64,000 bases of DNA. Origin: Echinostoma caproni (lineage: Eukaryota; Platyhelminthes; Trematoda; Plagiorchiida; Echinostomatidae). The first letter of the stretch is position 1. Each line of letters opens with the position of its first letter. The stretch is from positions 10,327 to 74,326 of the forward strand of contig UZAN01039725.1 in NCBI GenBank assembly GCA_900618425.1, read 5' to 3'. Positions 14,735 through 60,430 of this stretch are shown in pieces. The translations under genes were made by a program, and so were the position numbers. The notes beneath the pieces are model-generated. The model searched no databases and was not told where the DNA came from. It saw nothing but the letters and a program-made list of their open reading frames with translations.

Positions 14735-15090
14735 ACGAATTCCCAATTGAAATTTGACCAAATCCTCACATGAAATAATCAGTCAGGTTGTGAATGTTTC
14801 CAACCGAGTCATAACCCCGGAGTTGGCCCGGCAACAAACTTTCAAAGATAGGTTGAGCTATATCGTGTAAATGGAAAATGAAAAGCGGTCTCATCGGTTG
14901 CTCGGTGGCGTAGTGGGTAGCACTCTTGCGTTCTGCCTATGAAGTCCCAGGTTCGATCCCCAGTCGGGTCGATGAATTCGCACTGCTGATGAGACCCAAC
15001 CAGGTCGGACCAGCTGTTTAGTGCTTCCGAGCTTTTCAGTCCACGCTTCATTTGCTATATACACGACGAATTCCCATTTGAAATAAAAGA
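14735..15090 (+). repeat. tRNA-headed hammerhead repeat, family 1 (copy A)
   Basis: Order along the plus strand: a tail segment (ACGAATTCCC at 14735), a linker (14788-14870), box A TGGCGTAGTGG (14906-14916), box B GGTTCGATCCC (14950-14960), a hammerhead core (14980-15024), then the tail again (ACGAATTCCC at 15066). The two tail occurrences are 331 bp apart, suggesting a monomer of about 330 bp and a former tandem array. The A and B boxes imply RNA polymerase III transcription. The layout matches the schistosome Sm-alpha satellite or SINE type. This is the best-preserved pol III head in the window. Confidence 0.85.
14980..15024 (+). ncRNA. Hammerhead ribozyme core, family 1 copy A (mutated)
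   Basis: Stem I 5' strand GCACTG, then CTGATGA, stem II GACC with hexaloop CAACCA and GGTC, then GGAC where GAAA-C is required, then AGCTG-TT and the stem I return TAGTGC. The CTGATGA box, stem II and stem I are essentially intact. The GAAA box is changed, so self-cleavage is unlikely. It is a type I layout with a one-pair stem III, as in Penelope and satellite hammerheads. Confidence 0.75.
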
Positions 15091-15318
15091 ACACCAAGAA
15101 AAGTTAAAAATCAGTGAAATGATAATAGAAAGTCGTAAAATCAGGGTAGTTGAAAATAGAAAAATCTGTCTGTGAAACCACGTAGCTAAGTTTTGTGATA
15201 TCTCTGGGTCTCAGTATCTTATGGTTGCGGGTCAATTACGAATGTTTTTTCTAGTTGAAATTACCATATGCAGCTAGAAAGATTACAAGGTCCGATTTTA
15301 GGCCAGTGCGATACACAA

Positions 15319-15989
15319 NNNNNNNNNNNNNNNNNNNNNNNNNNNNNNNNNNNNNNNNNNNNNNNNNNNNNNNNNNNNNNNNNNNNNNNNNNNNNNNNNN
15401 NNNNNNNNNNNNNNNNNNNNNNNNNNNNNNNNNNNNNNNNNNNNNNNNNNNNNNNNNNNNNNNNNNNNNNNNNNNNNNNNNNNNNNNNNNNNNNNNNNNN
15501 NNNNNNNNNNNNNNNNNNNNNNNNNNNNNNNNNNNNNNNNNNNNNNNNNNNNNNNNNNNNNNNNNNNNNNNNNNNNNNNNNNNNNNNNNNNNNNNNNNNN
15601 NNNNNNNNNNNNNNNNNNNNNNNNNNNNNNNNNNNNNNNNNNNNNNNNNNNNNNNNNNNNNNNNNNNNNNNNNNNNNNNNNNNNNNNNNNNNNNNNNNNN
15701 NNNNNNNNNNNNNNNNNNNNNNNNNNNNNNNNNNNNNNNNNNNNNNNNNNNNNNNNNNNNNNNNNNNNNNNNNNNNNNNNNNNNNNNNNNNNNNNNNNNN
15801 NNNNNNNNNNNNNNNNNNNNNNNNNNNNNNNNNNNNNNNNNNNNNNNNNNNNNNNNNNNNNNNNNNNNNNNNNNNNNNNNNNNNNNNNNNNNNNNNNNNN
15901 NNNNNNNNNNNNNNNNNNNNNNNNNNNNNNNNNNNNNNNNNNNNNNNNNNNNNNNNNNNNNNNNNNNNNNNNNNNNNNNNNNNNNNNNN
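15319..15989. other. Assembly gap (671 N)
   Basis: Run of N. Reading frames drawn through it are meaningless. Confidence 1.
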
Positions 15990-16215
15990 TTGTGAACTGT
16001 CGAATGGACTATCCCAAATTTACTAATCTTAATTGTTTGAACCACCCGCACAAGAAGATGACTGCCGTCTACCGTGTATCTCAAGGATAAGGGTTTGAGG
16101 TCCAGACCCGAACATTTGATGCTCAAGTCCTGACAGGGACACAAAAAGTGCGCACTGGTGAAGAATCCCAAACAGGACGGACCAGCTGTCTAGTGTTGTT
16201 TGTCGGTCATCACAA
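15990..16215 (+). repeat. Hammerhead repeat, family 3 (copy 1)
   Basis: Matches the segment at 32026-32200: shared blocks include the AGGACT/AGTCCTGACAGGGACACA region and the TTTGTCGGTCA end. A hammerhead-like core sits at about 16154-16198: GCACT, GGTGAAG in place of CTGATGAG, stem II TCC/GGA around CAAACA, GGAC in place of GAAA, then AGCTGTC and TAGTG. The left end is cut by the assembly gap. Confidence 0.6.
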
Positions 16216-16658
16216 ATCTTTCCCTCACTTATAGGTTAGGATCAACTATAAAACAATAAACTAATTATTTCCGCTCCGAACTGTACCCATACAACGAAAT
16301 CTGCCCTAATAAAAATCTTGTATTCTTCAAGTTGTGACTATAATTTGCAGTTACATTTCAAGTAACAGTTCCGCATTGCTGACTCGTTCAGGCAAAAAAG
16401 AAACGGTTGTTCTGTGCTGTTTGTCGATCATTGCAAAACACATCTTCGTAAGAAAACCTGAAGAATTTGTGTTAAATCGATCTATCCCGGACTGTAATCT
16501 TTTGTTTTCGGTACAAACTGTACTGTCGCCTATGTATCGTATGATGCACCGCGATTAAAAACCAGTCAAAATCAATGGATACACTTGCGCAAATCTTCAA
16601 AAAAACAATATTTATATGATGGAATATTGAGCCATATAAAAATCTGCAAGAAATCGTC

Positions 16659-16826
16659 GGGTAAATGAAGCGTTAGTTGAAAAACTGGGAAGCATTTGAT
16701 AGCTGATTCGATCTGGTTGGGTCTCATCATCAGTGCACGAATTCATCGATCCAGTTTTTGATCAAACTCGGAACCTCACAGGTAGAGCGCAAGCATGCTA
16801 CCTACTGGGTCACCCAGCCGCTGACC
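16659..16826 (-). repeat. tRNA-headed hammerhead repeat, family 1 (copy B)
   Basis: Reverse-orientation copy containing the tail, the ribozyme region, a decayed box B and a decayed box A (GGGTGACCCAGTAGG on the minus strand). The core reads ATGATGA for CTGATGA and GAATC for GAAAC, so the ribozyme is dead. No linker is recognisable beyond the head. Confidence 0.7.
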
Positions 16827-19800: not shown

Positions 19801-20837
19801 TTCCATGTAGTATGTGATGATGTAACCGACGTTATTACCGGCAACGGTACACATTTTCCCCCTTTATAAACCTGTGTCAAATTACTGTATACGCTTAGAA
19901 ACTGAACTTCTCAGTGCCTAGAGTTTGGTAGTTCAGCCAGGTGGACGGTTTACAAATCTGAAGAAATGCCAAATAATCTACAATATTTTCGCTTTCACCA
20001 CGTCACATTGTATAACCACTGGGTTTTTTGCATTGTTTTGCACAGTATTAAAAACGCAAACCCTAATTGGACTGGCCTCATCCGGAACGGAGACAACCTG
20101 AAAAGTAAAAACTCACTGAGCTACGGAGAAACGCATGTACACTGTACAGTGTGCGCATTTGAATTACGCACCAAGCCGAATTGCAAAGACGCTATCAATG
20201 AACCTCCGACAACATACCTGACTGGGAATGAGACCGAACGACAGTAAGTGACATTTCATTTAGTAAAATGAGCAACATTTGATTACTTTGTGATATTATT
20301 TCTGTTAAAGCAGTTGTACAAAACCGAATTAGTGTTGAAACCAAAGTGCTTCAGCCAGTCCGTGTATCCGGGCAGTGATGCACTTAAATCGCAGACTTCC
20401 TCACCTTCACTCCAGTCGCCTTAAGCTCAGTGTATATGCCCCGCTAAAGACTATCAACAAGGCTTAACTGACTGCTCGGTGATTTCGAATCTTTTTCAAC
20501 GAAGGATCACTCCCTAATTCGTCCATCTCCTGCTATATTATCATTGATTCACCTCCTGAAACTAAGAATTAGTGACAGTAAGGTTCATACTCAAAATAGC
20601 CTAAATTGCTGATTCGTTTAAAAATTGAAATACACAATGCACAACTGTAAAAGTAGTCTGTCAAACATTAGTTTGTTTCTACAGTCGCTTTGCTATCAGT
20701 GAGGCAGTTTAACAGACATCTAAATCGCCAAGAACATAGGTGAGGTTTATTCATCCTCCCAAAATTTCCCCAAAACTGGATATCATTATTGTAAGAGTCC
20801 GGGGCCTTCTGCTTCTTCTGTGAAATTCCGGTCCAAA
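16827..20837. other. Unrecognised sequence
   Basis: Several short frames occur, including 120 codons at 17584-17946 on the plus strand and a cluster at 17975-18470, but I recognise no domain. Nothing ties them into a gene. Confidence 0.4.
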
Positions 20838-21353
20838 TACACTGCTGGCCGATTGTGATGCACTAAAATATTTTCTTTATGGTCAAATGGAGTTTCATTA
20901 TATTTATCACCTGTATTAATGCTTTAGGTATGGACGATAATTTATATCTTGTCTACTCCGATCTACGTAGTTTCTAGGCTGCATGAGTGTCAAGGTTAAA
21001 TGATCTCAATATGAAAACCACAAACTTTATCAAGTATGACGACGCAATATTTTCTAAAAGGAATGACTCAAGAATTATCCTAAATTGTTTCCATAAATCC
21101 CTGCCATCTCGGTTATTTATTATGACGCATCATTTTATCAAATATATATAATCCATTATGGCAATTCTATTGGATAACCAAATGGAATTCTTCTACAACC
21201 CAGAGAATTTGCATTAAATAGGTCTTCATAATACTAATCTACGGTTGATATCTAACTCACTGAATTTGAGAAATACCACTTCAATCAAAGTCAACCTTGA
21301 AATCAAAGTCATGTTTGTGCACAGCTTTGAATGTTCGTATTGTTGTCACTATA

Positions 21354-21694
21354 ATGAAGCAAGCAGCGCCCAAAACCAAAAGTTCTCGTTACCTCAATGA
21401 AGAGGACAGAAACAGAATTGCACGAGCACACAAGCTGAAATTTTGGACATCAAATTTTGCCCAATGCTTTAGCGTTAACAAAAGCACAATTTACAGGATC
21501 TCAATGTGATTGAAAATATGTTTTCTGTTTTGAAGAGAGAGGTCAATATGCTACCTATATATTGGACATTGAAGGCAAAAGTGCGTTACGTAATGGAGCA
21601 CAAAATAGAAAATGACTTTATAAAAAATCTGTATTCGACACCGAGGAGACTCGAAAAAGTCCCAAAGAAAAAAGACAGACCAATCGGCTATTAG
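21354..21694 (+). pseudogene. Tc1-like transposase remnant, core deleted
   Basis: ATG at 21354 opens the DNA-binding N-terminus (MKQAAPKTKSSRYLNEEDRN, then a helix-turn-helix-like region ending in NKSTIYRI). At 21497 it jumps to the C-terminal region, NVIENMFSVLKREVN, in a different frame (about 21506-21694), and ends at a TAG near 21694. The two catalytic Asp residues and the intron seen in the other copy are absent. The third acidic residue (the E of VIEN) remains. It cannot encode an active transposase. Confidence 0.8.
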
Positions 21695-21762
21695 TGTACA
21701 CAAACTTCATATCTTACTTATTATCAATGNATTTGTTGTTAATAAAAACTGTTCCATTCTCT

Positions 21763-22511: not shown

Positions 22512-22925
22512 ATGAGGCGTGAGATGAAAAGCTTGGAAGCACTGGACAGCTGCTTCGACTTGGCTGGGTCTCATCAGCAGTGCAAATCCGTCAATTCAAC
22601 TGGGAAGCGAACCCGGGACCTCACAGGTAAAACGCAAGCATACTGCCCACTCGGCCACCGGGCAGCTGATCAGACCATTTCTCATTTTGAATACACATGA
22701 TGTAGCACAATCCATCTATACGAGATTGTTGCGAGTACCGGTCCTGGCTCATTTCAGCACTAGTCTCCAGGGTTATGACTTGGTTGGAAACTTTCACAAT
22801 GGGGTTCAATTCCCAGTTGGGTCGATGGATTCGTGCACTGTTGATGAGATTTAACCAGGTCAAGGCAGGTTTCAAGTGCTTCCCGGCTTTTCATCCGACG
22901 CTTTATTTACACGCCGAATTACAGC
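22512..22925. repeat. Inverted composite of two family 1 repeats
   Basis: 22512-22690 is a minus-strand copy: tail, hammerhead, box B, box A. It is followed by the reverse of the family linker (22690-22797) and then by a plus-strand copy that begins just before box B (GGTTCAATTCC) and runs through the ribozyme region and tail to 22925. The same order of parts occurs at 35329-35705, so this is a recurrent composite and not a random pair of insertions. Confidence 0.75.
22539..22583 (-). ncRNA. Hammerhead ribozyme core, family 1 copy C (near-intact)
   Basis: GCACTG, CTGATGA, GACC-CAGCCA-AGTC (one mismatch in stem II), GAAG in place of GAAA, C-AGCT-GTC, CAGTGC. Stem I is a perfect 6 bp and the GTC cleavage triplet is present. 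The A-to-G change in the GAAA box leaves only a wobble at the base of stem III. Activity is doubtful but testable. Confidence 0.75.
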
Positions 22926-29523: not shown

Positions 29524-32025
29524 GTGTGAGGTGACTAGCACTCCTGGCTTCTATGCCAAATTGAATAGATCTTAATTCAAATCCAAGGGCTATATTTTCC
29601 AATTCGCATATTGACCTCAATTAAATTTCCCCAATGGTCTGCGATAACCTTTGCTATTAGATTTCGTCTTTTTACACTCCTCGCTGAAGAGTACTTGTGA
29701 GAACAAAACTCAAAGTTGTTGCATCCTGACAAGATGTATTTGGTGTATGTTCGATAGGATGTATTGATGATAGTGCGCGTGGCATCGTTGATCAGATTCA
29801 AGAAAAATGAAATTCACCTTATACTCGACCAAAGATGGTGTTAAATAATACTCTGGGGAAGAACAGTACAACTATTTCCACCAGTTAAACTACTAGTGTG
29901 AAGCTATCCACCCTACTGGGAGCCAAATTCCAGATCTGTCCGGTAGAATACAAGCGGGTTACTTCCCTGAAGAATGGGATTTGATCACGCTGTGTTCACT
30001 TTCTTTCACTTTCCTTTATATTAATGATGGAGTTTGCTACGTCATATTACTTATGGAGAATTAGTGAAGTATCCTTTGAAAGTTAATAACATTTTGCTGA
30101 TTAAACTAGAATCGAATCAAAACCGAAAGTGTTTAAAAGAATACTATATTTTAATAATATGTCCTCCGATGGTCTCGGCTTCAAAAGTCCACTCAAAGTG
30201 AATATAACTAACTGGTCTTTTGGTTTAACTCTTGTTCGTTCGTCTGTCTCAGGTTCCGATAGTTTTTCCCCTTGTTAAAAACCTTCTTCATGGAATTCGT
30301 GGATTTCCACCCTATTGAATATATCTCATTTTTGATGGAATTATTTTGAAGGTTGATAAGGGGCACCAGAGAGCTGGTTCGTCCTCGTCGAAACTCGTCA
30401 CATAAGTGTGCTATGCTTATGGCCGTGTGGAGGATAGAACCACAATGTTTCGGCTTGAGGGTTGACAGGATGAGACAAACAATCTATGTTTTTTGCTAGT
30501 CATTATTGTTGGCATGAATATGATTTGTGCTCTTTGTAGTAATTGGGTAGGGTTTACTTCTTACCCCTTTCTTCATATTACATCTATAATCAAAATAAAA
30601 TTAGGACAGTGCTTCAACATTTCAACTTCACTTTTTGATAGAATTAAAATGTTATAAGCAAACTCGTTTTTGAAAGCGTTATTACGGGTTGATAAATCCT
30701 AACGTACATGGCTATTTTGGTCAATGTGAAATCCAAAGCAAAATGGAATTTTTCCCTTTTACGATTGAATGTTACTAAGTTGCATCAAAAGAAAGTGGTA
30801 CTCATGAACATGATAAGAGACAGAAGGAATTGCGGCCGGCATGGTCAGGCGATTTGCCCATCAATGGACATCAATGGACACCTCGTCCATGGAATGCTGC
30901 GTGGGCGGATCCTGTCGTTTCCACCCTTATCAAAACGCAGTTACTAAACACGAGCCGGACCACGGACACCGAAGGCTATTGTTGCATAAACCGCGTGCTT
31001 GGAGCTCACGATTTGACAAACGAATGAATTACTTTTGAACTTCGTTATATCATTTTTATTAAACGAAATTCGTTCTAATGCAATCAGTGATGGCTGTGTC
31101 AAAGAAACACTTGAATGGGCATATGCCAGCAGGAGCTGAAGGTAAAGGAAATTTATCATTGAACAGAAAACACCGAACTCACCTGAAGATGAAAAGAACA
31201 GCTAGCTTGGTCACGAAAACATTTCATTGCAACATGTATTGAGAATTTTCAATCCACTATCTCGTAAAATTCTTCTAATAATACGTGGGTTCTTTGCTTC
31301 ATTTGACGGCCATTCGACGACGGGATATACTATCCACAAAGTGTTTTGAATTAATTATGGTACAAAAGCGTCTTGAAGAAATCCAAGTTCGTAACCAAGA
31401 GCACTTTCCACGTAAGTAGTGGTTGACAGGTACTGGGCTGAGATTGATTCAAGATGTTTATTGTGAACAAAAACGAGAGAGAGAAGTTTCGTGTACAGAA
31501 GTGATTACTGCATTGCACTGAATAAAAGCAGGCTAAATAGACCATTACGCACTATCATCCGAACAAAAGAATCATCACTTCTATCCCTGTTTTCTGTCTA
31601 TTATAAAACTCTTTACTCCCAGTATTTTCAAACTCCGGTCCTATTCATAACTAAGAAGTCCGAATATTTACACAAATAATTTGGACCACAAGTGTAAAAT
31701 TGTGAAATCAGAAAGTGCTACTTTGTTCATCTATCCTACCAAACCAGTCTAGCGCTCATAAATCTACCAAACTCCACGCAGCGGAAAATGGGTAGCCTGT
31801 CAAACGCGATGAAACCACATGTTTCACCTAATACATGCATTATTTGCATTCAAGAATCTTGGTCAAACCAATATGTTGGGGGGTGGGAGGTCTTTATTGT
31901 GCGTATAAACAGGCTCGAATATCTCGAGAAGGACAACATAACACAAGAATAAAAAGAGTGATGATAATGTGGATTGTACCTATCAATTCATTCTAGTGCG
32001 ATAAACCCAAGGGGTAGTTTTCAGT
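29524..32025. other. Unrecognised sequence
   Basis: No gene, RNA or repeat family recognised. Confidence 0.4.
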
Positions 32026-32200
32026 GGAACTGTTTGTGGTAACCGACAAAGAGCAACAAAGACAACTGTTTCATCCTGTTTGTGACTTGTCAGCAGTGCG
32101 TACCTTCTGTGTCCCTATCAGGACTAGAAACGTTAACCTTCATCAGCAGTGCCTAGTGCCTGTGAAAAGCCGAATGGGCTAACCCAAACATTCGCCATCT
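32026..32200 (-). repeat. Hammerhead repeat, family 3 (copy 2, rearranged)
   Basis: 32026-32135 is the reverse complement of 16105-16210. By contrast 32158-32192 matches 15990-16016 in the forward sense, so the unit is internally rearranged. The ribozyme core (32053-32099, minus strand) reads GCACTG, CTGACAA for CTGATGA, an imperfect stem II around ACAAACA, an intact GAAAC, and AGTTGTC. A second partial core (GGCACTGCTGATGA) lies at about 32136-32155 on the minus strand. Confidence 0.6.
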
Positions 32201-35328: not shown

Positions 35329-35705
35329 TGAGTTGAAAAGCTGGAAAGCACTAGACTCCTGTTTCCACCTAGTTGGGTCTCATTAGCAGTGCGAATCCAT
35401 CGACCCAATTGAGAATCGAACCCGAGACCTCACAGATAGAACGCAAGCATACTGCCCACTCGGCCACCGGGTAGTTTATCCGTTTCTCATTTCGATTATG
35501 CACGATATAGCACAACCCCTTTTATGCGAGCTTGTTGTGAGTGCCGGTTCTCGATAATTCCAGCACTAGCCTGCAGGGTTATGACTCGGCTGGAAACTTC
35601 CACAACATGCTTGCGTTATATCTGTGAGGTCCCGGGTTCGACCCCCAGTTGGGTCGATGGATTCGCACCGCTGACCGGACCCAACCAGGTCGAAAAATTC
35701 TTTTT
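35329..35705. repeat. Inverted composite of two family 1 repeats (second locus)
   Basis: A minus-strand copy (35329-35490, with tail end, ribozyme, box B and box A) is followed by the reversed linker (35490-35613) and a plus-strand copy that enters at ATGCTTGCGTT, just before box B (GGTTCGACCCC at about 35636), and stops inside the ribozyme after CGAAAAATTC. It uses the same linker-to-head junction as the 22.5-kb composite, but retains more of the forward head. Confidence 0.75.
35348..35392 (-). ncRNA. Hammerhead ribozyme core, family 1 (35-kb copy, mutated)
   Basis: GCACTG, CTAATGA (one change from CTGATGA), GACC-CAACTA-GGTG, GAAAC, then AGGA-GTC and TAGTGC. The GAAA box and GTC triplet are intact. 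The conserved G in the first box is lost, so it is probably inactive. Confidence 0.7.
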
Positions 35706-38040
35706 AGATATCTAGTACAAATTCACAGACAGTACTAGGCAATTCATTCTATCAGTAGAATGGATGCTGCCGTGCAACTGACCAGAATATCAACGCCGTC
35801 ACACGAGCAATATGTTGGCACTATAGGTCTTATAAAACCCCTTACACCCGAGTTTTGGTTACAATGGCTTAGGTAACCGGGTTCTAGTGTAAAATCCTTA
35901 GTTATGAAACAGTTGGACAGTACTTTCATGGTTTTTTTTAGTAAGACACACAAACGGGGACAGATAGATATCATAATGATAGTTTTTATACTGCGCCTGC
36001 TCCATATATTCTATTCTGCAGTCTATTCCATGGACGCCAATTCTCGGTCTGATAACGATCCCCTCCCCCAATTCCCCCATGCACTTTATGGATATTTCTC
36101 TCTCTCTCGCACACACACACACACACGCATCTTCTTTGTCATCCATAAATGATGAGACAATTAGTTTGTACTTTTGGGGCCCAAACGTCATCCCTCTGAT
36201 AGGCACGAGCCAGCTCGGCGGTGAAACGTGGGATGCTCCATTCACTCAACCGCGTAGTCCATCGTCCACTCCAATGCCACCGTGCTTACTCCCACCCAAA
36301 AAGAGAAATGTTCGTGTAAATTATAAACAGGATTTTTTTTCTCCTCTGTCTTTGAACCCTTGTGCTGCACATTAGAACACCTGTGTACCTAAACCTCACA
36401 GGTGGCTGTACTTTGTCAGTAGAATATACTAGTGGAGTATACTAGCGAGTGTGTAGACAAGTCCATCTACCCCTCACTGATCAGTCTAGCCATTTTGGAG
36501 AACACAATCTTTCACTTGTCCTACAAGCCTGTATCAGCAGTCCTGGAATCGAGAGGATATCACCTCCGATGGCGGAGACAGTTTCACCAGAAAAGGGTAC
36601 GTGTGAAACAGACAGGAGAGCGGCTGGGGGAGGGGGAGACAATAGCATAAAATGCGCATGTCTGACATATTTTGATTGTCACTTTTCGTTTTTTTTTCTC
36701 TTCTCCAGTTCGGCCAGATTACCCTGGGCCCGTGTTGTTTGTTCATTGTCGGCATTGCCGTGTGAATCGTAGTGGACTGGATTGAAGTGAAACTGAACGA
36801 TTGGTTAGGATAATTTGCAAGAAAAGTACAAGCTCGAATTGCACGATCCACACGAGTGAAGGACACGAAGCGTCATCGCGAGGCCACACCGACCAGCCTG
36901 TTTGAACTCGCTTTCCGTATCAATTCGGTTCACGTGTGTGTGTGCCCGCAATACACGTGCCCGTGGAACGAAAACGGAAACTGGTAGAATCATTCTCTCA
37001 TTTGTGTGTATAGTCTTGGTCACTGATACACTGAACAACGTGAAAAGTGCTTCCATGTTAACCAAAAGCCTCGAAACTTTGATAGTCCAAGATAGGGTTT
37101 AATACTCTCCTAATTCATTGAAGAAAGGCTGTTTGAAGAGGCCGAACCGAGTTTAGGGGTCTACCAAATCTATGACCAGTTTTACCTCCGACAAAGACAT
37201 AATTTCCAGTAAAATTGACTAGCCTGGTATCAACATTGACAGACGAACGATAACATTCAAATGAATTGAATATAGTACATCTCAGTTGCTATTTCAAGTG
37301 GATCGACATTTTTCGTGAAATCCTGATAACTTAGACATTAATAGCATCTAATTCGTAATTTAGGTAGACAGTAATTCTTTACCTGGAGGAGACGCATTTT
37401 TGGTTAAAAAAAGAGGACCTCACTCCACCAATCCCATTCATGCATAACCGTATGGAGCTGTGGTTGCAACTTGTAAAGTACAACGAAGTACAATCGGACT
37501 CCCACAAGTTCGTGAACGATACTCAATAACATTAATTCACACTCGATACGTTGGTCGTCTACGGTAAGGGGAAGGCTACAAAGAGGGATATTTCGATGTT
37601 TTCAGAGGAACTAACTGCTTTGTAATCCCATCAATCTTAAAAAAGGGTTATGTCTTTCTCGGTTTGGGATACACGCCGCCATACTTACTGAACAACTGTG
37701 GTCTGAATGCATGACAGCTGATAGAAATTCTCTATGGTTGACCGATCGCCATTGAAAAACGTACATGGAGTGGATAATGCGCTGGTGCAACTATCACGGA
37801 ACGTAATGGTGTAATGCCCTATGAAGCGATAAATTATGGCTTCAGTTAAAAATGGCGGATTGAAATCGAACGGACAGAGTTATACAAACCGTATAAGTGT
37901 ATCAACATTGCAAGGATCTGGGGCTGATTAATGGGGTAGGGAACTATTTGGCTTGGTTGGAAGATTGAGCTGGTTCTCACTGACGGGACTTTGAATGGTT
38001 CTAGGTACATAAATGTTGATTTATTTGAGCTAGCTATCCT
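35706..38040. other. Unrecognised sequence with a possible first exon
   Basis: Holds a short AC tract (36111-36126), the candidate exon at 36569, and a CA/CG-rich block at about 36900-36970. No gene model can be built. Confidence 0.35.
36569..36596 (+). other. Candidate first coding exon
   Basis: ATG in good context (CCGATGG) opens nine codons, MAETVSPEK, followed directly by a strong donor, GTACGT at 36597. The upstream 500 bp is CT- and C-rich. Only the combination of start context and donor suggests an exon. No acceptor or downstream coding exon was found within the window. Confidence 0.15.
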
Positions 38041-38370
38041 TAGGACTTCACCTTCACGAACAATTCTCAGTTCATCGATTCAATTATACACTCAATCAGT
38101 ATCAACCATCCCACACCACTAGTCACAAGTAACTGTAATGGTTTGCACACGTCTTCCATGCTATCGGTCCGGAGTTCAAATCCCGGACGGTGGATATGCA
38201 CTACTGATGAGCTCTATTAAGAACAAAACTCGAGACTAGTGCTTCCTAGTGCATGGCTGAATCGATGAACTGAGGATTGTGCGTGAAGGTGAAATCCGCA
38301 GGGTAGTCAGCTCAAATCAATCAATATCAATAATCCCACACCACTACTCACAAGCAACTGTGAGTTAAAT
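38041..38370. repeat. Hammerhead repeat, family 2, inverted pair
   Basis: 38041-38090 is the reverse complement of the 3' half of the unit that follows (compare GGACTTCACCTTCACGAACA with the GTGCGTGAAGGTGAAATCC block at 38279). A forward unit occupies 38139-38370: a tRNA-like box B (GAGTTCAAATCCC), the ribozyme core at 38198-38242 and a tail. A 40-bp segment (ATCAACCATCCCACACCACT...) lies before the forward unit and again at its end. Confidence 0.7.
38198..38242 (+). ncRNA. Hammerhead ribozyme core, family 2 copy a (mutated)
   Basis: GCACTA, CTGATGA, GCTC-TATTAA-GAAC (one stem II mismatch), AAAA for GAAA, C-TCGA-GAC, TAGTGC. The first box and stem I are perfect. The G of GAAA is lost and the cleavage triplet reads GAC instead of GTC. 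Confidence 0.7.
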
Positions 38371-40042
38371 GGGAGTAAATAAGTGTATTGAATAATCGAT
38401 GAAAGTCAATGCTACAGTGGATACCAAATGCATCTGGTGTTTCACGCGAGTAACGCCAATGGATCGCCCATTCGAGATACGCCATTCAATGACAGCAGGT
38501 TAAACAGAGAATCGCTACCGGCAGCCGTGTATCCGGACCACAGTTGCTTAACACTCATGTTATTCCAGATCGTCATAGAATGATGTTATAAACGGAGTCC
38601 TCCATAAACATCGAAATATTCCTCGGTGTGGCCTTCCTCCTACCACGGAAGATCAACCACTACCATAAATATGGCGACATGTACTGAATGTAAAGAAAGG
38701 TTAACTGGGTGTTGCTCACGAAACCGCGTCCGTGCGATTGCACCTCGTTGTACTTTTGAAGTTGCTAGCACAACCCCATATGTACACAGATCCTTTTGCC
38801 TCTAAGCTTGTACTTGGTTGTTCACAGACTCAAGGCACGACTTCGAACAAAAGTTGAGTTGATAGGGACAACACTTTAAACATTGTTCCCAAGGCCCTTC
38901 AAACAGTTTACACATTTCAACAGCAAACCATTCGAACATGTTTCAGTTCTCCAGTGTATGGACTCCTCGATTCTTCAACTTGTTCAAGTGAAAAACTTTG
39001 TTCAGCTGCGTATAAATAATGCCAGAATAGCAGTTCTACATATTCACTTGCAACCTGATCATTCTTCACGTTGAAAAACGAGTTAGTTGGTTAACCACCC
39101 ACCGAACGCTAGCCCATGATTGCGAGACTCAGGCAGCAATTAGAGAGGTATTTGACCACTGGCACCTATAGTGGATCTGTATATTTAATTGGTGAGACAC
39201 TGAGCGGTTGTAGCAGTCTCTAAAACGAGGACGGTTTCAATAACGCGGTCACCTTCCACGTCGTTCAGTTACAGAACTCAAAATATATTGCTTTGTCCCC
39301 GTGATTCGGGGAATGGTATTATCGATGTGGTGACGACTGACAGCATCGCTGAACTGGATGCAGAAGCTTTCTGCGACATTCGGTGCCGCAAAAAGTGCTA
39401 GTTCTTGATCTGCCCCGATTTCACCTACGACTGTCTTTCGTGGACAGCTAACGTTTACGATGAGTACACAGCCCGGTTTATCCCACAGTGAGAGTAGGTG
39501 GCATAAAATAATGATAAAAGTTTGACCTTTTACTTCTTATTCCAAACAATTTTTACGCGAACAATATAATGGGTTAAATGGGCATAAACCCATATCAAAT
39601 CCCATAGACAAGAACAATCAGACAGTTGAATTTATACGCATTAATCGAACTTTGCTTCCATCTGGTAGTCGAGGGACTTTTCGTGTGCTCAAAAGTTGCC
39701 GGCTCATGCGTTGAACTGCAAGTCTTTTCAGATTAACAGATAAAAAAATTCGCCAGTTCAGTAATTCGCGCGTATCGGTCTCGGTGTGAACAAGACATCA
39801 CATGTTCGGTAATTCTACTTCATGCATTCGATTTCACGCTATCCGGAACCAGAAGCAGTTTGGTTTTCGAGATAAGTGTGTCATCGGTGTATCGCCTACT
39901 CGCACCTAAAGCCTAATAAAACCACTTAAAACCATCATTCACACGTGGGTGGAACCCATGCTAGTTGTACATATTTTCACTGCAATAAATATCGCCAACA
40001 AATATCTATGCGTGTTCCATCAGAGATAGTGAGAGTCATGGN

Positions 40043-40730: not shown

Positions 40731-40840
40731 TTGAACTGCTCATCCTTCAGACTTCACCGCCAGGCACCATTCTCAGTTTATCCAGTCACAACCATACAAT
40801 CGAAAGCACTAGACTCGAGTTTCACTCTTATTAGAGCATG
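40731..40840 (-). repeat. Hammerhead repeat, family 2 (copy b, 3' part)
   Basis: Minus-strand copy truncated inside the ribozyme. On the minus strand it reads GCTC-TAATAA-GAGT, GAAAC, TCGA-GTC, TAGTGC and the tail. This copy keeps the intact GAAA box and GTC triplet that copies a and d have lost, but it lacks the CTGATGA box. Confidence 0.7.
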
Positions 40841-40860
40841 TATAGTACAACTATACAAAC

Positions 40861-41304: not shown

Positions 41305-41505
41305 AGCTGATTAGCACAATGACAACACACGCCATCCATGCGATGGATCCGGAGCGTAAATCCTGGACGGGACGGTGGATATGCACTACTGATGAGCTCC
41401 AATAAGAGCGAAACTCGAGGCTAGTGCTTTCGAATGCATGGTTGACCGGGTAAATTGAGGATTGTGCGTAAAGGTTAGGTCTGAAGGGTGGTCAGTTCAA
41501 AGCAA
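41305..41505 (+). repeat. Hammerhead repeat, family 2 (copy d)
   Basis: Forward copy in the same orientation as copy c and about 440 bp downstream of it. It contains a decayed box B (GAGCGTAAATCC), the best family 2 ribozyme core (41383-41427) and the tail up to TGGTCAGTTCAA. Confidence 0.7.
41383..41427 (+). ncRNA. Hammerhead ribozyme core, family 2 copy d (one change at the cleavage site)
   Basis: GCACTA, CTGATGA, perfect stem II GCTC-CAATAA-GAGC, intact GAAA, C-TCGA, GGC and the returning stem I strand TAGTGC (perfect 6 bp). The only core lesion I see is T to G in the GTC triplet, which removes the NUH requirement for cleavage. This is the most nearly complete ribozyme in the window. Confidence 0.8.
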
Positions 41506-43577
41506 TATATCTGCCTGCGTGGTAGTCACTAATAATGACTTGCATCCACTTTATCTGCTTCTTGTGAAAGAATCACATCCGGCTGCTAAGTTCATCTTAG
41601 CAGAGGATCTTATACTTTAGAAATCAAATGACAAATCATTAGCCAAAGATACATTTTTTTGTCAGTGAAAGTTGCAGGCTTCTATTTCTTAGTTTGACGG
41701 TTAGACTACATAGAACTTGTCCGAAACATTCAGGGTCCCAAAGACAGTTAAATTTTGCACCGTGTAAGACGTGCGTATCTTCATTTGTAAGTGTTACATT
41801 TATAGGCACTAACGGAATTCGTGCGTCAACAAGTTTGCTGGTGTTTATTCGCATAGGTTTCTCTGGTCAAAAAGTGTACATTCACATAAAGTGAGAAAAC
41901 TAACGCATTGCACGAATGCTCGTGAAAAACTAAACTTTATTCCGTAAAAATCGCAAATGTTTGGCGATCAATGAATGAAATCAGTTTCTTTTCGAATGAC
42001 TAACTTCAGACTAAAATTGTTACAGCCCAAAGTTGAATCATGGATACGTGGATGCTACCTAGTGTTTACAAGCATTTTACTAAGTTACTAATGTTTATGA
42101 TAACTCAATTCAAAATAACATTTGAGTATCTCTCTTCTTCTGTGTTTATCAGATATGGATTCTGTTTGATGAAGTTGATTCGGACAAAGGACTTGACATT
42201 GAGACCAATCCGATTTGCCAACTATCAGTTCGGTGTTGGCGTGTTTAAAGGAGAGACCGATAAAAATATCATAGACATGGTGGATAAGAAGAGGTAGAGG
42301 ATAGCGGCTACCAACAATGCCAGCGTTTCTTCTGTAAATCTGACTCGAATTTCTATCGACAACAGGAACACAATTTCTCATATAGTTTCACATAGGTTTT
42401 CAAAGAAAACGTCTGTAGATGAGTTAGAACCACCAACTAGGCTGACTATTTGGTTTGAATCGATAATCAGCAAGCTTTATAAAAAACCAACCACAGATAT
42501 AACAAAGAAAACAAATCATCGAATTTCAGTGGTAATGGTTTTATTTAGAGGAAGGCTGATTTTTGTGAGTTTCAAACGACGTAACCCACTGGTGAAACCG
42601 GTGAGGTAGCCGAATGATCTCGTTCACTGTGATCAGTGGGCACACGTTTCATGAAAAACGGCTTGACGTTCACCAATTTCATCGGTTTGTCGTGCGTCTG
42701 TTTTAGATAAATCTGAAATTGAGAGTATGTGGAAACGCTGACTTAACTGAGTGTGTGATTCCAAACATGCTATAAGGATTAACATAAAAAAGAAGAATAG
42801 GGTAAAAAACGAAATTTTGGGTAACAAATAAAAAGAAATGGACAGTGGCGTCCAAGTGAACAGTGATGATGAAAGAAACTGAAAAATGAGTGTCGCACAC
42901 GTTTGATAAATTCGGTAAATTCATCTTAAAATAGTACATTCTATAAATTAGTTTTCGATATGCTACTGCAGTATTTAAGTTTCCGGGGGTTAAATATTTC
43001 AAGTCGCCAACAAACTAGACCAAAGGTTGTATGTTCAAATCCCACACCTGTCACATGCATACCCTAATTCTGTTTGGACAGCTTCTGAATGGCCACAAAC
43101 TCGTTTCCGGAGATTGATGGCACAATTGTCTATTCGATAAAACATGCCTATCATGATTCACCTGTAGACCGACGATTCAACTCCAGACAATGACAGAACT
43201 TGTGATTTTAAGTTGCTTTTTAAATTTCATCAATATGGAAAGAAGACAAATATCGTGAGAAGTTAACATTTCGTTTAGTCTTCTCAATCGTTTACTGAAA
43301 ACAAACACGTACATGGGGTTGTTCAATTATGGTGCATGAATGTGTACACGCGTACAAAGATCAATAAAACATAGAAGTAGACGATCAGCTCCACGGTAAG
43401 TGGATTGACTGTATCAAAAATTTTGTGTGCATAAGTTCGGATGATGTAGTCGAATAAGCAGCGCTTCACTAGTTGCCAAGAGTTTAGCATTGCGATTACC
43501 TAAAAGTGGTTTGAAAGACGAATTGGAGTCAACTGTGTCTTGTTTTCATCAGATGTTTTGCAACAGATGGACCTGGA
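41506..43577. other. Unrecognised sequence
   Basis: Only short frames on both strands. No motif recognised. Confidence 0.4.
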
Positions 43578-43637
43578 TTTCATAGAAGGAATTCGTCGTG
43601 CATAGAGTAAATGAAGCGTAGACTGAAAAGCTGGGAA

Positions 43638-43682
43638 GCACTGTAAAGCTGTTTCGATCTGGTTAGATGTCATCAGCAGTGC
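43638..43682 (-). ncRNA. Hammerhead ribozyme core, left palindrome arm
   Basis: GCACTG, CTGATGA, CATC-TAACCA-GATC (closing C-C mismatch), GAAAC, AGCT, TTA in place of GTC, CAGTGC. Both conserved boxes and stem I are perfect. The TTA triplet still fits NUH but cannot form the usual C-G pair in stem III. Confidence 0.75.
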
Positions 43683-43914
43683 GCAAGCATGCTACCCATT
43701 CGGCCACCAGATTACCAGACCGTTTTTTCATTTCCTATTGACACGATATAGCACCATCCATAATTCGTAATCAACTACGACAGAAATGGGCGTTTCTCTT
43801 GCTTCCAATGCGGTATCGTGTAAATGGAAAATGAAAAACTGTCTGGTAGTTTGTCCGGTGGCCTAGTGGGTAGCATGCTTGCGTACTGCCTGTGAGGTCC
43901 GGGTCGATGGATCC

Positions 43915-43959
43915 GCCCTGCTGATGAGATCTAACCAGGTCGAAACAGCTCTACCATGC
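43915..43959 (+). ncRNA. Hammerhead ribozyme core, right palindrome arm (mutated)
   Basis: GCCCTG, CTGATGA, GATC-TAACCA-GGTC, GAAAC, AGCT, then CTAC where GTCC is expected, and CATGC. Both boxes are intact, but the cleavage triplet and stem I are damaged. Confidence 0.7.
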
Positions 43960-44048
43960 TTCCCAGCTTTTCAGTCTACGCTTCATTTACTCTATGCACG
44001 ACGAATTCCTTCTATGAAATTGAATCAAATCCTGCATTACTCACATGG

Positions 44049-44600
44049 AACCTGGATTTCTTGTAATAACTTGACCATCGACTATCGGTTGTCATCCATT
44101 TCACCAACCTCTTTGGAATATGTTCAGCCATCCGTGGCGAGAGCTGGCAGTTTGTTTTACCTAGATGTGCGTCACCGCAACTGCAGGTGAATTGATATAC
44201 AGTGTGGGAGATGGAACAGGTTTTCCAGCCATGTTTACTTTTGTGCAAATTAACTCAACGAGCAGAGGCATGAGTCTGAATTGAGCAGCTGTGGAATGTA
44301 CGGTCTAGAGCTGACCTCAACTTATGGCGCACATCATTGTAAGTGTGGTCACCTTTGAACGCAGGCTTTAAGTAGGTGTTATTTTTGCTTACGTTTTGGA
44401 TTAGGTCACTATTTGGGAATGGTCTACTGTGAATGTCCATAAACCTATCTGTGTAACCACTGTTTAGCAGTGTTTTCCTCAGGAAATCCTCTTCTTCCTT
44501 TAGTGTGTCTGGAGAACAAATGTCTATCGCCCGATGAAATAGGGTTCTCACAAGCCCACGTTTGTAAGCCATGGGGAAAAAGCTGGAAAAGTGTAGGTAT
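44049..44600 (-). pseudogene. Penelope-like element fragment: linker and GIY-YIG domain
   Basis: From about 44600 down to 44255 the minus strand encodes the conserved segment between reverse transcriptase and endonuclease (YKRGLVRTLFHRAIDIC, then KGDHTYNDVRHKL). From about 44248 it shifts frame into VYQFTCSCGDAHLGKTNCQL, the start of a GIY-YIG endonuclease domain with a cysteine pair, then AEHIPKRLVKWMTT. The reverse transcriptase domain upstream and the rest of the endonuclease downstream are missing. The frameshift is near 44250. The 3' end abuts the tail of the palindromic hammerhead repeat. Penelope-like elements are known to carry hammerheads in their terminal repeats. Confidence 0.85.
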
Positions 44601-46943: not shown

Positions 46944-46963
46944 CGAGCTTTCTGTATGTGAGC

Positions 46964-52784: not shown

Positions 52785-53095
52785 TGACGAAAAGTGAGGT
52801 GAAAGTCCACGAAGCCCCGTGCAGCTGTTTCGACCTAGTTGAATATTATCATCTGTGTGAACCTTTTGACCCAACGGGGTATCGAACCCAGACCTCACAT
52901 ATAGGACACAGTCCTGATACTAACTTTGCCATCGAATATTTAATCGGACTGTTTCACTTTTTCTATAAATGATCAAGCACAAACCATTTTTGCGAACTTT
53001 GTGCAAACAACTGAATTAGTTCAACTTAGCATTAGCCTACAGGGTTTATGGTACTGTCGGAAAATTCCTAACCTCATCGCTTAGTAGGACAGAGT
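52785..53095 (-). repeat. Family 1 hammerhead repeat with linker, strongly decayed
   Basis: Minus-strand copy: tail remnant, ribozyme region (AGGTCGAAACAGCTG intact, CTGATGA changed to ATGATAA), box B (GGTTCGATACCCC-like, about 52878), head, and then the reversed linker with the ATTAGCCTACAGGGTTTATG block (compare 35563-35580). Confidence 0.6.
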
Positions 53096-58170: not shown

Positions 58171-58211
58171 CTACCACAAGCAGGAAGGGGTAGACGTGTG
58201 TGGTTCTTGCG

Positions 58212-58213
<2 letters not shown>

Positions 58214-58254
<41 letters not shown>
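58214..58254. repeat. (TA)n tract left of the Tc1-like element
   Basis: About 20 TA units ending directly where similarity to the other transposon copy ends. Confidence 0.95.
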
Positions 58255-58560
58255 TCGAAAGTGAAGCAACGGGTCCCTGTGAAACACTTGTGGGTTCGTA
58301 TAGGCAACAGCACTTACAGTGAAGTAAATTATTTTTTCAGATAATAATAAACAAACCTTGATGAGTCTTTATGGACAAGATTTGGCTGATTCGTTTATAC
58401 TCAGCAGATGGAATGGTTCAGAATTTAGCGGTTACTTCCATTTCGTCAGCAGTCGTTGACCTAGACCATTATAAGTTAAGAGCTAACTAAAGAGAATAAA
58501 ACAATTTTTATTTAAAACAAATTAACATTGATAATGATTAAGATGTAAACTTTGTGTACA

Positions 58561-59444
58561 CTAATAGTCGACCGGTTGCTCTTTGTTCTTTAGGATTTTT
58601 TCGAGTCTCTTCGGCATCGAGTTCAACAATTTGTTATGAAGTCATTTTCTATTTTGTGCTCCATTACGTATCGCACTTTTGCCTCCAATGTCCAATGTAT
58701 AGGTAGCATATTAACCTCTCTCTTCAAAATAGAAAACATATTTTCAATCACATTGAGATCCGGGCTATTAGGAGGAAGTTGCATGAACTGGACCTTAGAA
58801 TCACGCATCTTTTCTGAAGTCTAAAAGCAAATATTAAGTGAATCAGTTTCCTTAAGTAAGTAAATTTACTAACCTCTCGCGAAACATGACACGGAGCGTT
58901 GTCCTGAAAAACGACAACTTCTTCCAGATGAATTGTTTTCATGAAATTCTGAAAACATTACTGATACGAATTTCCCACTATTCATGGTACCTTTGACTGA
59001 TGTCCACCGACAAGGCTGTGAGTATGTTTCATTCCTGCCCAGATGAATTCTCTCCACGGGTGAGAAAGTCTTTCATTTGGTGCAGCAAGTCCTTTTAGAA
59101 AACCGGAATCCTGGAACATTTCATTTTTTTATTCTTCTTTGCCGAAGGGAACATGAATGGTGGGGAAGATCTTCTTGGTGGATAGATAACAACGATTTTC
59201 TGCAATGTTTTTTTTCAGAGTAATACGAATTAGATCGTCATCCTGTTTGGATGTACTCGTTTGCGGCCTCCACAAGCTGTTCTGTTTTTTATATGGATTA
59301 TCCTGTAAATCATGCTTTTGTCAACGTTAAAGTACTGGGCAAGATTTGATATCGAAAATTTCAGCTTGTGTGCTCGTGCAACTCTGTTTCCGTCTTCTTC
59401 ACTGAGATAACGAGAACTTTGTTTTCAAATGATACCTGCTTCAT
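58561..59444 (-). pseudogene. Tc1-like transposase pseudogene
   Basis: Start ATG at 59444 (MKQ, as in the other copy); stop TAG at 58561-58563. Recognisable parts: the N-terminal helix-turn-helix region (59400-59300), IHLGRNETYSQPCRW, GTMNSGKFVSV, then after a +1 shift near 58943 MKTIHLEEVVVFQDNAPCHV with the second catalytic Asp, then after a 53-nt intron PPNSPDLNVIENMF with the catalytic Glu. Exactly 34 residues separate that Asp and Glu, the Tc1-type spacing. The first catalytic Asp is lost (FSPVERIHL where FSDES-type is expected). A one-base loss near 58626 stops the C-terminus early. Not functional. Confidence 0.85.
58821..58873 (-). other. 53-nt intron within the transposase
   Basis: On the minus strand it starts GTTAGTAAATTT and ends TTTGCTTTTAG. 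It lies in phase 0 between the codons for SRE and TSEKMRD. Removing it joins two conserved parts and restores the exact D34E spacing, which argues for a real intron rather than a random insertion. Confidence 0.7.
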
Positions 59445-59967
59445 TATGGTGACAACATTACGAACATCCAAAGCTGTACACAAACATGACCTTGATTTCA
59501 AGGTTGACTTAATTAAAATGGTATTTCCCGAATTGAATGAGTTAGCTATCAAACATAGATTATTATTATGAAGACTTATTTAATGCAATTTCTCCGGGTT
59601 TCGTTTGATTATTCAAGAGAGTTGCTTTAATGGATAAAAATAGATAATAATAATAATAAGATTAAATAATGCCTCAAAACAAATAACCACGATGGCAAGG
59701 GTGTATGGAAATAATTTGGGATAATTCTTGAGTCACTCCTTTTGGAATATATTGCGTTTTCATACTTTTCATATTGAGATTATTTAATCTTGGCAGCCAA
59801 GGTCAGTCACGTTTAATTGACAATAATGTAGCCTAGAAACTATCTATATCGAAATAGACAAGGGATAATTTATTGTCCATACCTAAAGCATTATTATAGG
59901 TGACTAATATAATGAAACTCCATTTGTTCGTAAAGAAAATATTTTAGTGTATCACAATCGGTCAGTA

Positions 59968-59970
<3 letters not shown>

Positions 59971-59999
<29 letters not shown>
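59971..59999. repeat. (TA)n tract right of the Tc1-like element
   Basis: About 14 TA units between the transposon and the adjacent hammerhead repeat. Confidence 0.95.
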
Positions 60000-60002
<3 letters not shown>

Positions 60003-60003
<1 letters not shown>

Positions 60004-60430
60004 AAATGAGAAACTATTTGATAGGCTGCCCGGTGATCGAGTGGATAGTATCTGTGCGTTCTACCTCTCGTCTTTTGTCTTCTTTTTGTCGCTGTCTTTT
60101 TACTTCCTTTTTTATTTACTGAACATACAAATGTACAGTCAACATTCAGGAAGGGGGCGCAGCCATACAAAGGCTGCCTGGGAAGACGGATGACGGTGGA
60201 ACGGTTCGATTCCGGGACTTCCAGGTCATAAGTTGGTGACCTAACCCCTTGGCCACCACCACCTTGTTTCTCGGGTTCGATTCCCAGTTGGATCGATGGC
60301 TTCGCGCTGCTGATCAGACCCAACCAGGTCGAAACAGCTGTCCAGTGGTCCTCAGCGCTTCATCTCACACCGCAGTTACATGACGAATTCATCACATAAA
60401 CAAATCAAATCCTCCACTGATCTCATGTTT
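60003..60430 (+). repeat. Family 1 hammerhead repeat split by an insertion
   Basis: The head (AAAAATGAGAAAC, then a box A region GGTGATCGAGTGG) stops at about 60066. A foreign segment of about 200 bp follows, and the repeat resumes at about 60268 with box B (GGTTCGATTCC, 60274-60284), the ribozyme and the tail. The inserted segment has its own box B-like GGTTCGATTCC at 60203-60213. Confidence 0.75.
60304..60348 (+). ncRNA. Hammerhead ribozyme core, 60-kb copy (one change in the first box)
   Basis: GCGCTG, CTGATCA (G to C at the catalytic G of CTGATGA), perfect stem II GACC-CAACCA-GGTC, GAAA, C-AGCT-GTC, CAGTGG. Everything but that G and the outer end of stem I matches the family consensus. 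Confidence 0.8.

Follow-up and report, generated by a model that had tools for sequence, protein, structure and literature searches.

Results

The window, that is the whole 64,000-nucleotide stretch of Echinostoma caproni DNA analysed here, carries dispersed copies of short elements with a type I hammerhead motif, together with part of a Penelope-like element (PLE) gene. An earlier note had listed the motif at 13 places, in three repeat families. It is present at all of them, in some badly decayed, as judged from Rfam, a 45-nt descriptor, DNA matches within families and a covariance model built from window copies. The features are as follows.

2063..2107, plus: decayed hammerhead without family and without B box (descriptor, model)
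7914..7958, minus: weakly family 3-like hammerhead, beyond the earlier list (covariance model)
9589..9633, minus: family 3-like hammerhead, beyond the earlier list (model non-member)
14734..15084, plus: family 1 locus with a 20-nt tail repeat at both ends (14734-14753 and 15065-15084, 331 nt apart), enclosing 5' module, tRNA-like head, hammerhead and tail
14898..14972, plus: tRNA-like head (ARAGORN tRNA-Gln, 95% threshold only), with a 44-nt spacing of A and B boxes and its end 7 nt before the hammerhead
14980..15024, plus: family 1 hammerhead with A13G and A15.1C (Rfam below gathering, model)
16152..16196, plus: family 3 hammerhead, decayed (Rfam below gathering, model)
16373..16417, plus: family 3 hammerhead, decayed, 221 nt after the 16152..16196 copy on the same strand (model non-member)
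16692..16736, minus: family 1 hammerhead, decayed (DNA match, model)
22539..22583, minus: family 1 hammerhead with A15.1G, left arm of a divergent pair (above Rfam gathering)
22835..22879, plus: family 1 hammerhead, right arm of the pair with 22539..22583, apparently of another subfamily
30363..30407, minus: decayed hammerhead without family (descriptor, model)
32055..32099, minus: family 3 hammerhead with G8A (DNA match, model)
35348..35392, minus: family 1 hammerhead with G5A, left arm of a divergent pair (Rfam below gathering)
35400..35474, minus: tRNA-like head belonging to the 35.4 kb copy (ARAGORN tRNA-Pyl, 95% threshold only), ending 7 nt before the hammerhead
35665..35718, plus: family 1 hammerhead, truncated right arm (covariance model, non-member)
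38094..38382, plus: family 2 locus with an AC-rich direct repeat (38094-38157 and 38319-38382, 225 nt apart), with B box, hammerhead and tail in between; 38013-38092 holds a piece of the tail in inverted orientation
38198..38242, plus: family 2 hammerhead with G12A and U16.1A
40806..40848, minus: family 2 hammerhead with an intact 3' half that includes the GTC site; it forms a divergent arrangement with a decayed 40.9 kb copy
41383..41427, plus: family 2 hammerhead with U16.1G (Rfam below gathering)
43567..43581: left target-site duplication of the 43582..44044 pair
43582..44044: head-to-head family 1 pair, inserted together as a single unit in the PLE gene (flanking direct repeat; uninterrupted PLE copies)
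43638..43682, minus: family 1 hammerhead, full core, A17, with one mismatch each in stems II and III
43915..43959, plus: family 1 hammerhead, full core, A17, stem I with 3/6 pairs
44015..44599, minus: Penelope-like reverse transcriptase gene, C-terminal part, with a GIY-YIG-like motif by eye, carrying the 43.6-44.0 kb insertion
44045..44060: right target-site duplication of the 43582..44044 pair
52814..52858, minus: family 1 hammerhead, decayed (DNA match, model)
60304..60348, plus: family 1 hammerhead with G8C (above Rfam gathering)
60624..60668, minus: hammerhead without family, full B box match 19 nt upstream (Rfam below gathering)

Rfam Hammerhead_1 exceeded its gathering score at 22583-22539 minus (37.5 bits) and 60305-60348 plus (36.2 bits), and matched below it at 41.4, 14.98, 35.3, 16.15 and 60.62 kb; the last was absent from the earlier list, which held the other four. 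The descriptor found eight strong type I hammerhead sites scoring at least 31 in the window, whereas 60 dinucleotide shuffles averaged 0.10 such sites; chance or low complexity as the source of the motif was rejected. The copies at 16.7, 52.8 and 32.05 kb scored only 27-29, near noise; their DNA matches to their own families have E-values of 6e-29, 1e-12 and 4e-16, respectively. The covariance model, made from 17 window copies and run unfiltered, detected 21 sites, 17 of them its own members, and 12 of the 13 listed places match it by construction because they are among these members. Its four non-members (E <= 0.0044) are 35665 plus, 9633 minus, 16373 plus and 40848 minus, the last being the listed 40.8 kb copy, where the motif is present but only the 3' half is well kept. 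In the genome, all 74 scored matches, out of 66,429 first-look candidates, lay above the Rfam hammerhead gathering score. The 68 genome loci that were fetched were chosen by ribozyme score, and families 1 and 2 lay outside the genome-wide search. A scan of viral contigs found no exact core like that of families 1 and 3.

A three-stem junction with CUGANGA, GAA, A15.1-U16.1 and H17 identifies these motifs as type I hammerheads, which are predicted to cleave themselves. Many copies depart from the CTGATGA/GAAA core of the earlier note: all core letters are kept in 2 of 18 scored window copies, and most window copies look like inactive, decayed relics. All are kept in 72 of the 90 fetched genome copies, from loci chosen by score; together with 2 of 17 window copies these make 74 of 107 full-length rows. 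Stem III is very short and palindromic, ACAGCTGT in families 1 and 3 and ACTCGAGT in the 40.8 kb family 2 copy, and is palindromic in the Rfam hammerhead consensus too.

Stem II covaries, as had been claimed. Its pair 15-26 is AU in nine of the 17 window copies, UA in four, UG in two, CG in one and unpaired in one. In this set, none of 500 shuffles reached the observed covariation score or proportion of paired cells, but the counts of pairs changed on both sides (288/500) and of further pair types (164/500) stay within the shuffled range. When 94 distinct window and genome rows were aligned to the model, the covariation score was 0.192 versus 0.130 in shuffles (0/500), the figure for pairs changed on both sides being 33/500. 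From these alignments we judge compensatory change in stem II to be real. Folding of whole elements gave z scores of -2.46 (14.9 kb), +0.53 (22.6 kb) and -1.14 (41.4 kb), which are mixed in sign and size and therefore give no general support to a whole-element fold.

No protein code was found in the hammerhead elements. By eye, some family 1 copies keep an open frame that begins at the core ATG, but family 2 does not, and a coding tail was set aside. The units of ~220-330 nt leave no room for a reverse transcriptase with GIY-YIG, and none was found inside them.

Upstream of the ribozyme, a tRNA-like head was recognised. At the 95% threshold ARAGORN made exactly two calls in the whole window and was silent in 20 shuffles; both calls stop 7 nt short of a family 1 hammerhead. 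Its default setting called no tRNA in the heads, its 80% threshold gave 42 window calls, hardly above the 17-39 in shuffles, and the Rfam tRNA model found no tRNA in the heads of the three copies tested. In four family 1 copies the A and B boxes are 43-44 nt apart, at tRNA spacing, and families 2 and 3 are related to such a head by their B box. A B box of at least 9/11 lies within 60 nt upstream in 12 of 20 copies (family 1 7/10, family 2 1/3, family 3 3/3, unassigned 1/4), with a background of 3.3% per random place and copies of one family sharing descent, so that they are not independent. On the reverse strand it was found in 3/20. A clear B box is missing in 8/20 copies, including 2/3 of family 2, the family in which the evidence for a head is weakest. 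The A and B boxes suggest that the head acts as a Pol III promoter.

Since a tRNA-like head or B box adjoins the ribozyme upstream, the three families look like variants or branches of one Sm-alpha-like tRNA-hammerhead SINE design. Three unrelated families are ruled out by the shared upstream head, and the repeats can no longer be called otherwise different, as each of the three includes copies with an upstream B box. Of the several parallel ribozyme retroelement families proposed for this lineage, what remains is the presence, in several repeat families of one fluke lineage, of type I hammerheads with a very short, palindromic stem III and with covariation; the families themselves look like branches of a single design.

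Copies tend to lie back to back. Among 23 close pairs (gap at most 450) in the 68 fetched loci, 20 are divergent, two convergent and one tandem. A short and a long 3' end are combined in 15 of the 20 divergent pairs (one of them, L019, is the source of the reference tail), and five do not fit this pattern. Target duplications scoring at least 10 flank 7/20 divergent pairs versus 2/380 (0.5%) mismatched flank pairs; the other 13 have no clear duplication. Four of the five divergent pairs in the window are without significant duplication; for the 43582..44044 pair, none of 194 random flank pairs matched as well as its flanks do. Copies are dispersed and some bear target-site duplications, as in tRNA-derived SINEs; head-to-head copies with target duplication and optional tail, as in Penelope-like elements, occur as well.

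Same-strand tail repeats are spaced 307-322 nt in nine cases, the tail of a preceding unit lies upstream in 31 of 96 ribozyme copies, and repeat spacings in the window are 225, 331 and 221 nt. Hammerhead units of the retrozyme size (~170-400 nt) thus occur as partial tandems; no long tandem arrays were seen. Some arms exceed one ~315-nt unit, so the templates appear to have been multimeric or circular.

The pair at 43582..44044 lies in the PLE gene. Out of 23 PLE loci compared with this site, 21 match both flanks and 19 run across it. Once two loci that cover the same places as others and one with a 53-nt gap are set aside from the latter, 16 clean and distinct copies remain. Given the flanking duplication and these uninterrupted copies, the pair reads as a single insertion that arrived as one unit. 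The PLE is abundant, with 150/150 scored matches among 4292 first-look candidates in the genome. Its piece in the window reaches 24.9 bits with RVT_1, under the cut-off of 29.6, and the GIY-YIG seen by eye was not called by Pfam. No homologues of the piece were found in a protein collection whose length limits exclude full-length PLE proteins.

Discussion

We think that these fluke elements are probably non-autonomous, Sm-alpha-like retroelements, whose multimeric or circular RNA is copied at both target strands, most likely by a PLE. Each element would consist of a tRNA-derived head, a few nucleotides, a type I hammerhead and a family-specific tail, and would be transcribed by Pol III. In tandem units, the RNA would cut itself at the GUC site into unit-length pieces, which may be circularised; the palindromic stem III suggests that two paired motifs form the most effective ribozyme. 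Both strands of a staggered target cut would then serve a reverse transcriptase, for which the abundant PLE is the likeliest source, in copying RNA that is multimeric or circular; it would start near the ribozyme on one strand (short end) and roughly 100-130 nt further on the other (long end). This would leave two diverging arms whose tails face outward, together with a target duplication of ~12-19 nt.

Movement by PLEs has already been proposed in print, where they are named a strong candidate for moving animal hammerhead SINEs and retrozymes (PMC7229834), and the likeness of our divergent insertions to published PLE insertions suggests it here as well. PLEs are reported to cut and extend both target strands with an internal start (PMC11167929), and to leave pLTRs in an inverted, head-to-head arrangement, with duplications of 8-10 bp and in some cases a tail (PMC3846280). 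On the other side, cleavage by the PAc HHR was dispensable for insertion in vitro (PMC11167929), and no PLE end matching the SINE tails was found in loci that span ~1.5 kb either side of the C-terminal piece; an RTE-type LINE is a further candidate for the enzyme.

Instead, an RTE or CR1 LINE could have moved the elements as ordinary tRNA-derived SINEs, with divergent pairs arising by twin priming on the RNA. The window does contain an endonuclease gene that we take to belong to an RTE-type LINE, inverted arms would be expected, and GAAAT is common to the end of the 43.7 kb minus-strand arm and the target duplication. However, the arms overlap and both carry the ribozyme, instead of being consecutive pieces, and their ends lie mostly at two preferred places and not at scattered annealing sites. 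We consider this unlikely, though deserving some weight.

It is also conceivable, though we find it distinctly unlikely, that the elements descend from a PLE pseudo-LTR, which would make them non-autonomous PLEs with an acquired tRNA-like promoter and not SINEs that a PLE had borrowed. Pseudo-LTRs have type I hammerheads, head-to-head copies and an optional tail (PMC7761336, PMC3846280, PMC11167929), and the family 1 3' end, ~117 nt after the start of stem II (43928 to 44044), is close to where PAc has been reported to start, at 111-118 nt. In 20 PLE loci, with 5' ends outside coverage, no hammerhead or tail was attributable to the PLE itself; the matches there look like inserted elements, those of family 1 in several loci and in both orientations, that of family 3 in L080, and that of family 2, by an HH9 match, in L073. 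A PLE origin of the tails was rejected: in loci spanning ~1.5 kb either side of the C-terminal piece, PLE 5' ends lying outside, no PLE end matched the SINE tails and no shared terminal sequence was recognised.

Fold-back of a single cDNA might have produced the divergent arms. Arm identity is 0.763 within versus 0.739 between loci (29/5000 permutations), a mean likeness slightly raised over 15 pairs that does not decide between two templates and fold-back. Three of these 15 pairs have arms clearly more alike than those of other loci (L018, L027 and L013, with 0, 0 and 1 of 28 comparisons scoring higher), and the 43.7 kb minus and 43.9 kb plus arms are 94% alike. In most other pairs, however, the two arms resemble each other hardly more than arms from different loci do, the 22.6 kb minus and 22.8 kb plus arms share only 72%, and a second preferred 3' end is not predicted, which makes fold-back improbable to us. 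Remnants of tandem satellite arrays broken by inversions and deletions, which same-strand repeats of 307-322 nt and the published Sm-alpha satellites might recall, are hardly credible when divergent pairs are far commoner than tandem ones and several have target duplications.

Returning to copying by a PLE at both target strands, we tentatively extend it, with slightly less than even confidence, to hammerhead SINEs and retrozymes of animals in general: they would be mobilised in trans by PLEs, in one RNP with dimeric or circular RNA and two start sites, leaving the divergent pair as footprint. Any fluke genome can be scored for this footprint, two preferred ends plus target duplications, which offers a direct test of the moving enzyme. 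It fits the in vitro report of a PLE extending both strands (PMC11167929), and the back-to-back landing hints at which enzyme moves ribozyme-tRNA SINEs. The structure of the insertions is the new part; the literature searched, which omitted most subscription papers, yielded no report of divergent hammerhead-SINE pairs.

Among known systems, Sm-alpha and Sj-alpha of Schistosoma are likewise tRNA-related SINEs with a type I hammerhead and a very short stem III, including the 335-bp element W36.2_W001, with tens of thousands of motif matches (PMC2770079, PMC8490949). Here stem and tail sequences differ, three families share one window, and divergent insertions have two kinds of 3' end, of which the Sm-alpha texts covered gave no description. 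Parallel ribozyme families in one fluke are already known from S. mansoni, whose W25, W26, W27 and W36 are also weakly alike and have a minimal stem III; unlike those satellite-like elements, mainly of the W chromosome with autosomal copies (PMC8490949), ours are dispersed and tRNA-headed. Metazoan retrozymes are non-coding repeats of ~170-400 nt with a type I hammerhead (PMC7229834). The present elements resemble them in their signs of multimeric or circular templates, read from DNA alone, and differ in the tRNA-like head. With Penelope-like elements they share type I hammerheads, head-to-head copies, short duplications and an optional 3' tail (PMC3846280, PMC11167929), whereas the tRNA-like head, the lack of any protein code found and duplications of ~12-19 nt versus 8-10 bp (PMC3846280) set them apart.

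Hammerhead ribozymes and stem III

The earlier note had claimed that three repeat families of this DNA (families 1, 2 and 3), which we read as variants of one Sm-alpha-like tRNA-hammerhead SINE, share one hammerhead core, and the covariance-model check it proposed bears this out. The gathering score of Rfam Hammerhead_1 is exceeded at 2 window sites, weaker hammerhead matches cover 5 further sites, and a plain descriptor finds 8 sites at a score of at least 31 vs 0.10 per shuffle (60 shuffles). A covariance model built from 17 window copies, whose recovery is by construction, detected 4 additional window copies at E <= 0.0044. Covariation of stem II, also claimed, is seen: a compensatory change occurs at pair 15-26 among the window copies and in the window plus genome alignment, which was fitted to the covariance model itself, but 2 of 5 covariation measures for the 17-copy window alignment were not above shuffles. 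Parallel ribozyme families stand as an observation but not as a novelty, since ribozyme SINEs were already known from flukes, as was the presence of more than one such family side by side in a single fluke (PMC8490949).

Activity does not follow from a high covariance-model score, because the copy at 60304 lies above the gathering score yet carries G8C. All core letters are kept in 2 of 18 window copies, the pair at 43.7 and 43.9 kb, and both have stem mismatches. The core is complete in 74 of 107 full-length aligned copies from window and genome, and in 72 of the 90 from fetched genome loci, which were selected by Rfam score. At 43927-44040, family 1 tails are open in the frame of the ribozyme-core ATG in some copies, as judged by eye, which may be chance.

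The stem III sequence is an 8-mer complementary to itself: families 1 and 3 have ACAGCTGT, the best half-copy of family 2 has ACTCGAGT, and the Rfam consensus is likewise palindromic. That such an 8-mer leaves no space for a loop suggests that two hammerhead motifs may pair with each other. Hammerheads of Penelope-like elements (PLEs) reportedly cleave as dimers (Lunse 2017, as cited in PMC7761336).

The tRNA-like head

A tRNA-like head is located upstream of the ribozyme. At its 95% threshold ARAGORN made two calls in the whole window vs 0 in 20 shuffles.

ARAGORN calls at the 95% threshold; both stop 7 nt short of a hammerhead
14898-14972, plus strand, tRNA-like gene labelled tRNA-Gln
35400-35474, minus strand, tRNA-like gene labelled tRNA-Pyl

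At 80% the calls are uninformative (42 vs 17-39 in shuffles). The cloverleaf is degenerate, because ARAGORN at default threshold made 0 tRNA calls in the window and the Rfam tRNA model had 0 matches in the 3 copies tested. Four family 1 copies have an A box to B box distance of 43-44 nt; both boxes occur at such spacing in 24 of 3855 random stretches. An upstream B box matching at least 9 of 11 positions, mostly 14-21 nt from the ribozyme, is present in 12 of 20 window copies (family 1, 7/10; family 2, 1/3; family 3, 3/3; unassigned, 1/4), vs 3 of 20 on the reverse strand. In family 3 copies from elsewhere in the genome, a clear B box precedes the ribozyme by about 20-22 nt. Sm-alpha-like SINEs of S. 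mansoni are related to tRNA-Gln (PMC2770079).

Divergent two-ended insertions

Close same-family pairs of the window are mostly divergent, that is, head-to-head with tails outward.

Arrangement of neighbouring copies (position in kb; m, minus; p, plus)
22.6m/22.8p, minus/plus, divergent pair
35.4m/35.6p, minus/plus, divergent pair
43.7m/43.9p, minus/plus, divergent pair
40.8m/40.9p, minus/plus, divergent pair
38.0m beside 38.2p, minus/plus, tail piece in divergent arrangement
16152/16373 (nt), same strand
14.9 kb, same strand, partial repeat
40.9/41.4 kb, same strand

The 43.6-44.0 kb pair lies in a PLE gene, between ATGG-ACCTGGATTTC and ATGGAACCTGGATTTC. Both flanks are matched in 21 of 23 PLE loci, and the site is crossed in 19. 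Setting aside L091 and L092 (repeats of L076 and L071) and L090 (a 53-nt gap), 16 distinct clean PLE copies run across it, their two flank matches overlapping by 7-13 nt, which argues that both copies most likely came in together, in a single insertion. At the remaining 4 divergent pairs of the window there is no significant target duplication.

The genome searched comprises 426.5 Mb in 12,689 contigs. We fetched 68 of 74 scored Rfam hammerhead matches, a sample selected by ribozyme score and mostly of family 3 (its stem II in 76 of 107 aligned copies); the covariance model finds 98 hammerheads in these 68 loci. Neighbouring pairs at gaps of at most 450 nt number 20 divergent, 2 convergent and 1 tandem (18, 0 and 1 at up to 300 nt; 20, 4 and 2 at up to 800 nt). 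With the 160-nt tail of a single copy, the plus arm of L019, as the reference (longer ends being capped), 15 of the 20 divergent pairs have one end 2-44 nt and the other 141-160 nt past the ribozyme, the exceptions being L004, L057, L028, L051 and L047; long/long combinations number 0 of 20. Target duplication scores reach at least 10 in 7 of 20 divergent pairs vs 2 of 380 mismatched left-right flanks; an earlier choice of flank windows gave 7/19 vs 8.2% at this score and 5/19 vs 0.3% at 12 or more. The open-licence literature searched yielded no report of such a divergent two-ended footprint in tRNA-hammerhead SINEs.

Template and arms

In 9 cases among fetched loci a piece of the tail is repeated in the same orientation 307-322 nt away, and the distal tail of a preceding unit lies upstream of 31 of 96 ribozyme copies. 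These repeats indicate that some cDNA arms exceed one unit and that the template is multimeric or circular.

Window counterparts of the tail spacing
Family 1, 331 nt
Family 2, 225 nt
Family 3, 221 nt

The family 3 repeat, shorter than the genome's unit, perhaps contains a deletion. In 15 pairs, mean arm likeness is 0.763 within vs 0.739 between loci (29 of 5000 permutations) and is clearly raised in 3 (L018, L027 and L013). This likeness does not discriminate between two RNAs and fold-back. Against fold-back at the 22 kb pair, provided that it is one insertion, the arms of 22.6m and 22.8p are 72% alike and seem by sequence to be of different subfamilies.

Other mobile elements in the window

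46487-49584, minus strand, LINE remnant with endonuclease and RT-like pieces, protein matches in flukes

We take this remnant and its endonuclease to be of RTE type. The endonuclease has 42 protein matches, with Schistosoma, Clonorchis, Heterobilharzia, Paragonimus and Echinostoma (88% over 50 aa) as the named fluke sources; one match is labelled Marinifilum, a bacterium, probably through contamination, and the remainder bear no source name. These matches are the basis for assigning the DNA to a fluke (trematode). An AT-rich repeat is present as fragments of two copies in inverted orientation (20837-22008 and 58243-59973, 81-95% complementary) and is perhaps a Tc1/mariner-like DNA transposon, its ORFs having been judged by eye.

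A Penelope-like element as the likely enzyme

A PLE is abundant in the genome (150 of 150 scored matches, from 4292 first-look candidates). Its RT scores 24.9 bits against RVT_1, under the cut-off, and a GIY-YIG-like motif was spotted by eye. Cervera and de la Pena put PLEs forward as strong candidates to mobilise retrozymes (PMC7229834). By inference, a PLE is likely the enzyme moving the SINEs here; in the PLE loci, which extend about 1.5 kb to either side of a C-terminal piece, SINE tails and PLE ends had no recognisable sequence in common.

One PLE locus (L073:946-1084) contains two opposed sub-threshold Rfam HH9 matches, perhaps another divergent family 2 insertion. Two copies of family 2 have an optional AC-rich extension beyond the tail (38319-38382 and 41044-41107), which resembles the AC-rich RT start site described for a PLE (PMC11167929). 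The anole PLE PAc was reported to cut both strands in vitro, to extend each of them and to start internally to its RNA (PMC11167929). Rotifer PLEs form head-to-head inverted repeats that come with an optional tail and with 8-10 bp duplications (PMC3846280). The SINE insertions seen here, divergent and two-ended, resemble these PLE insertions.
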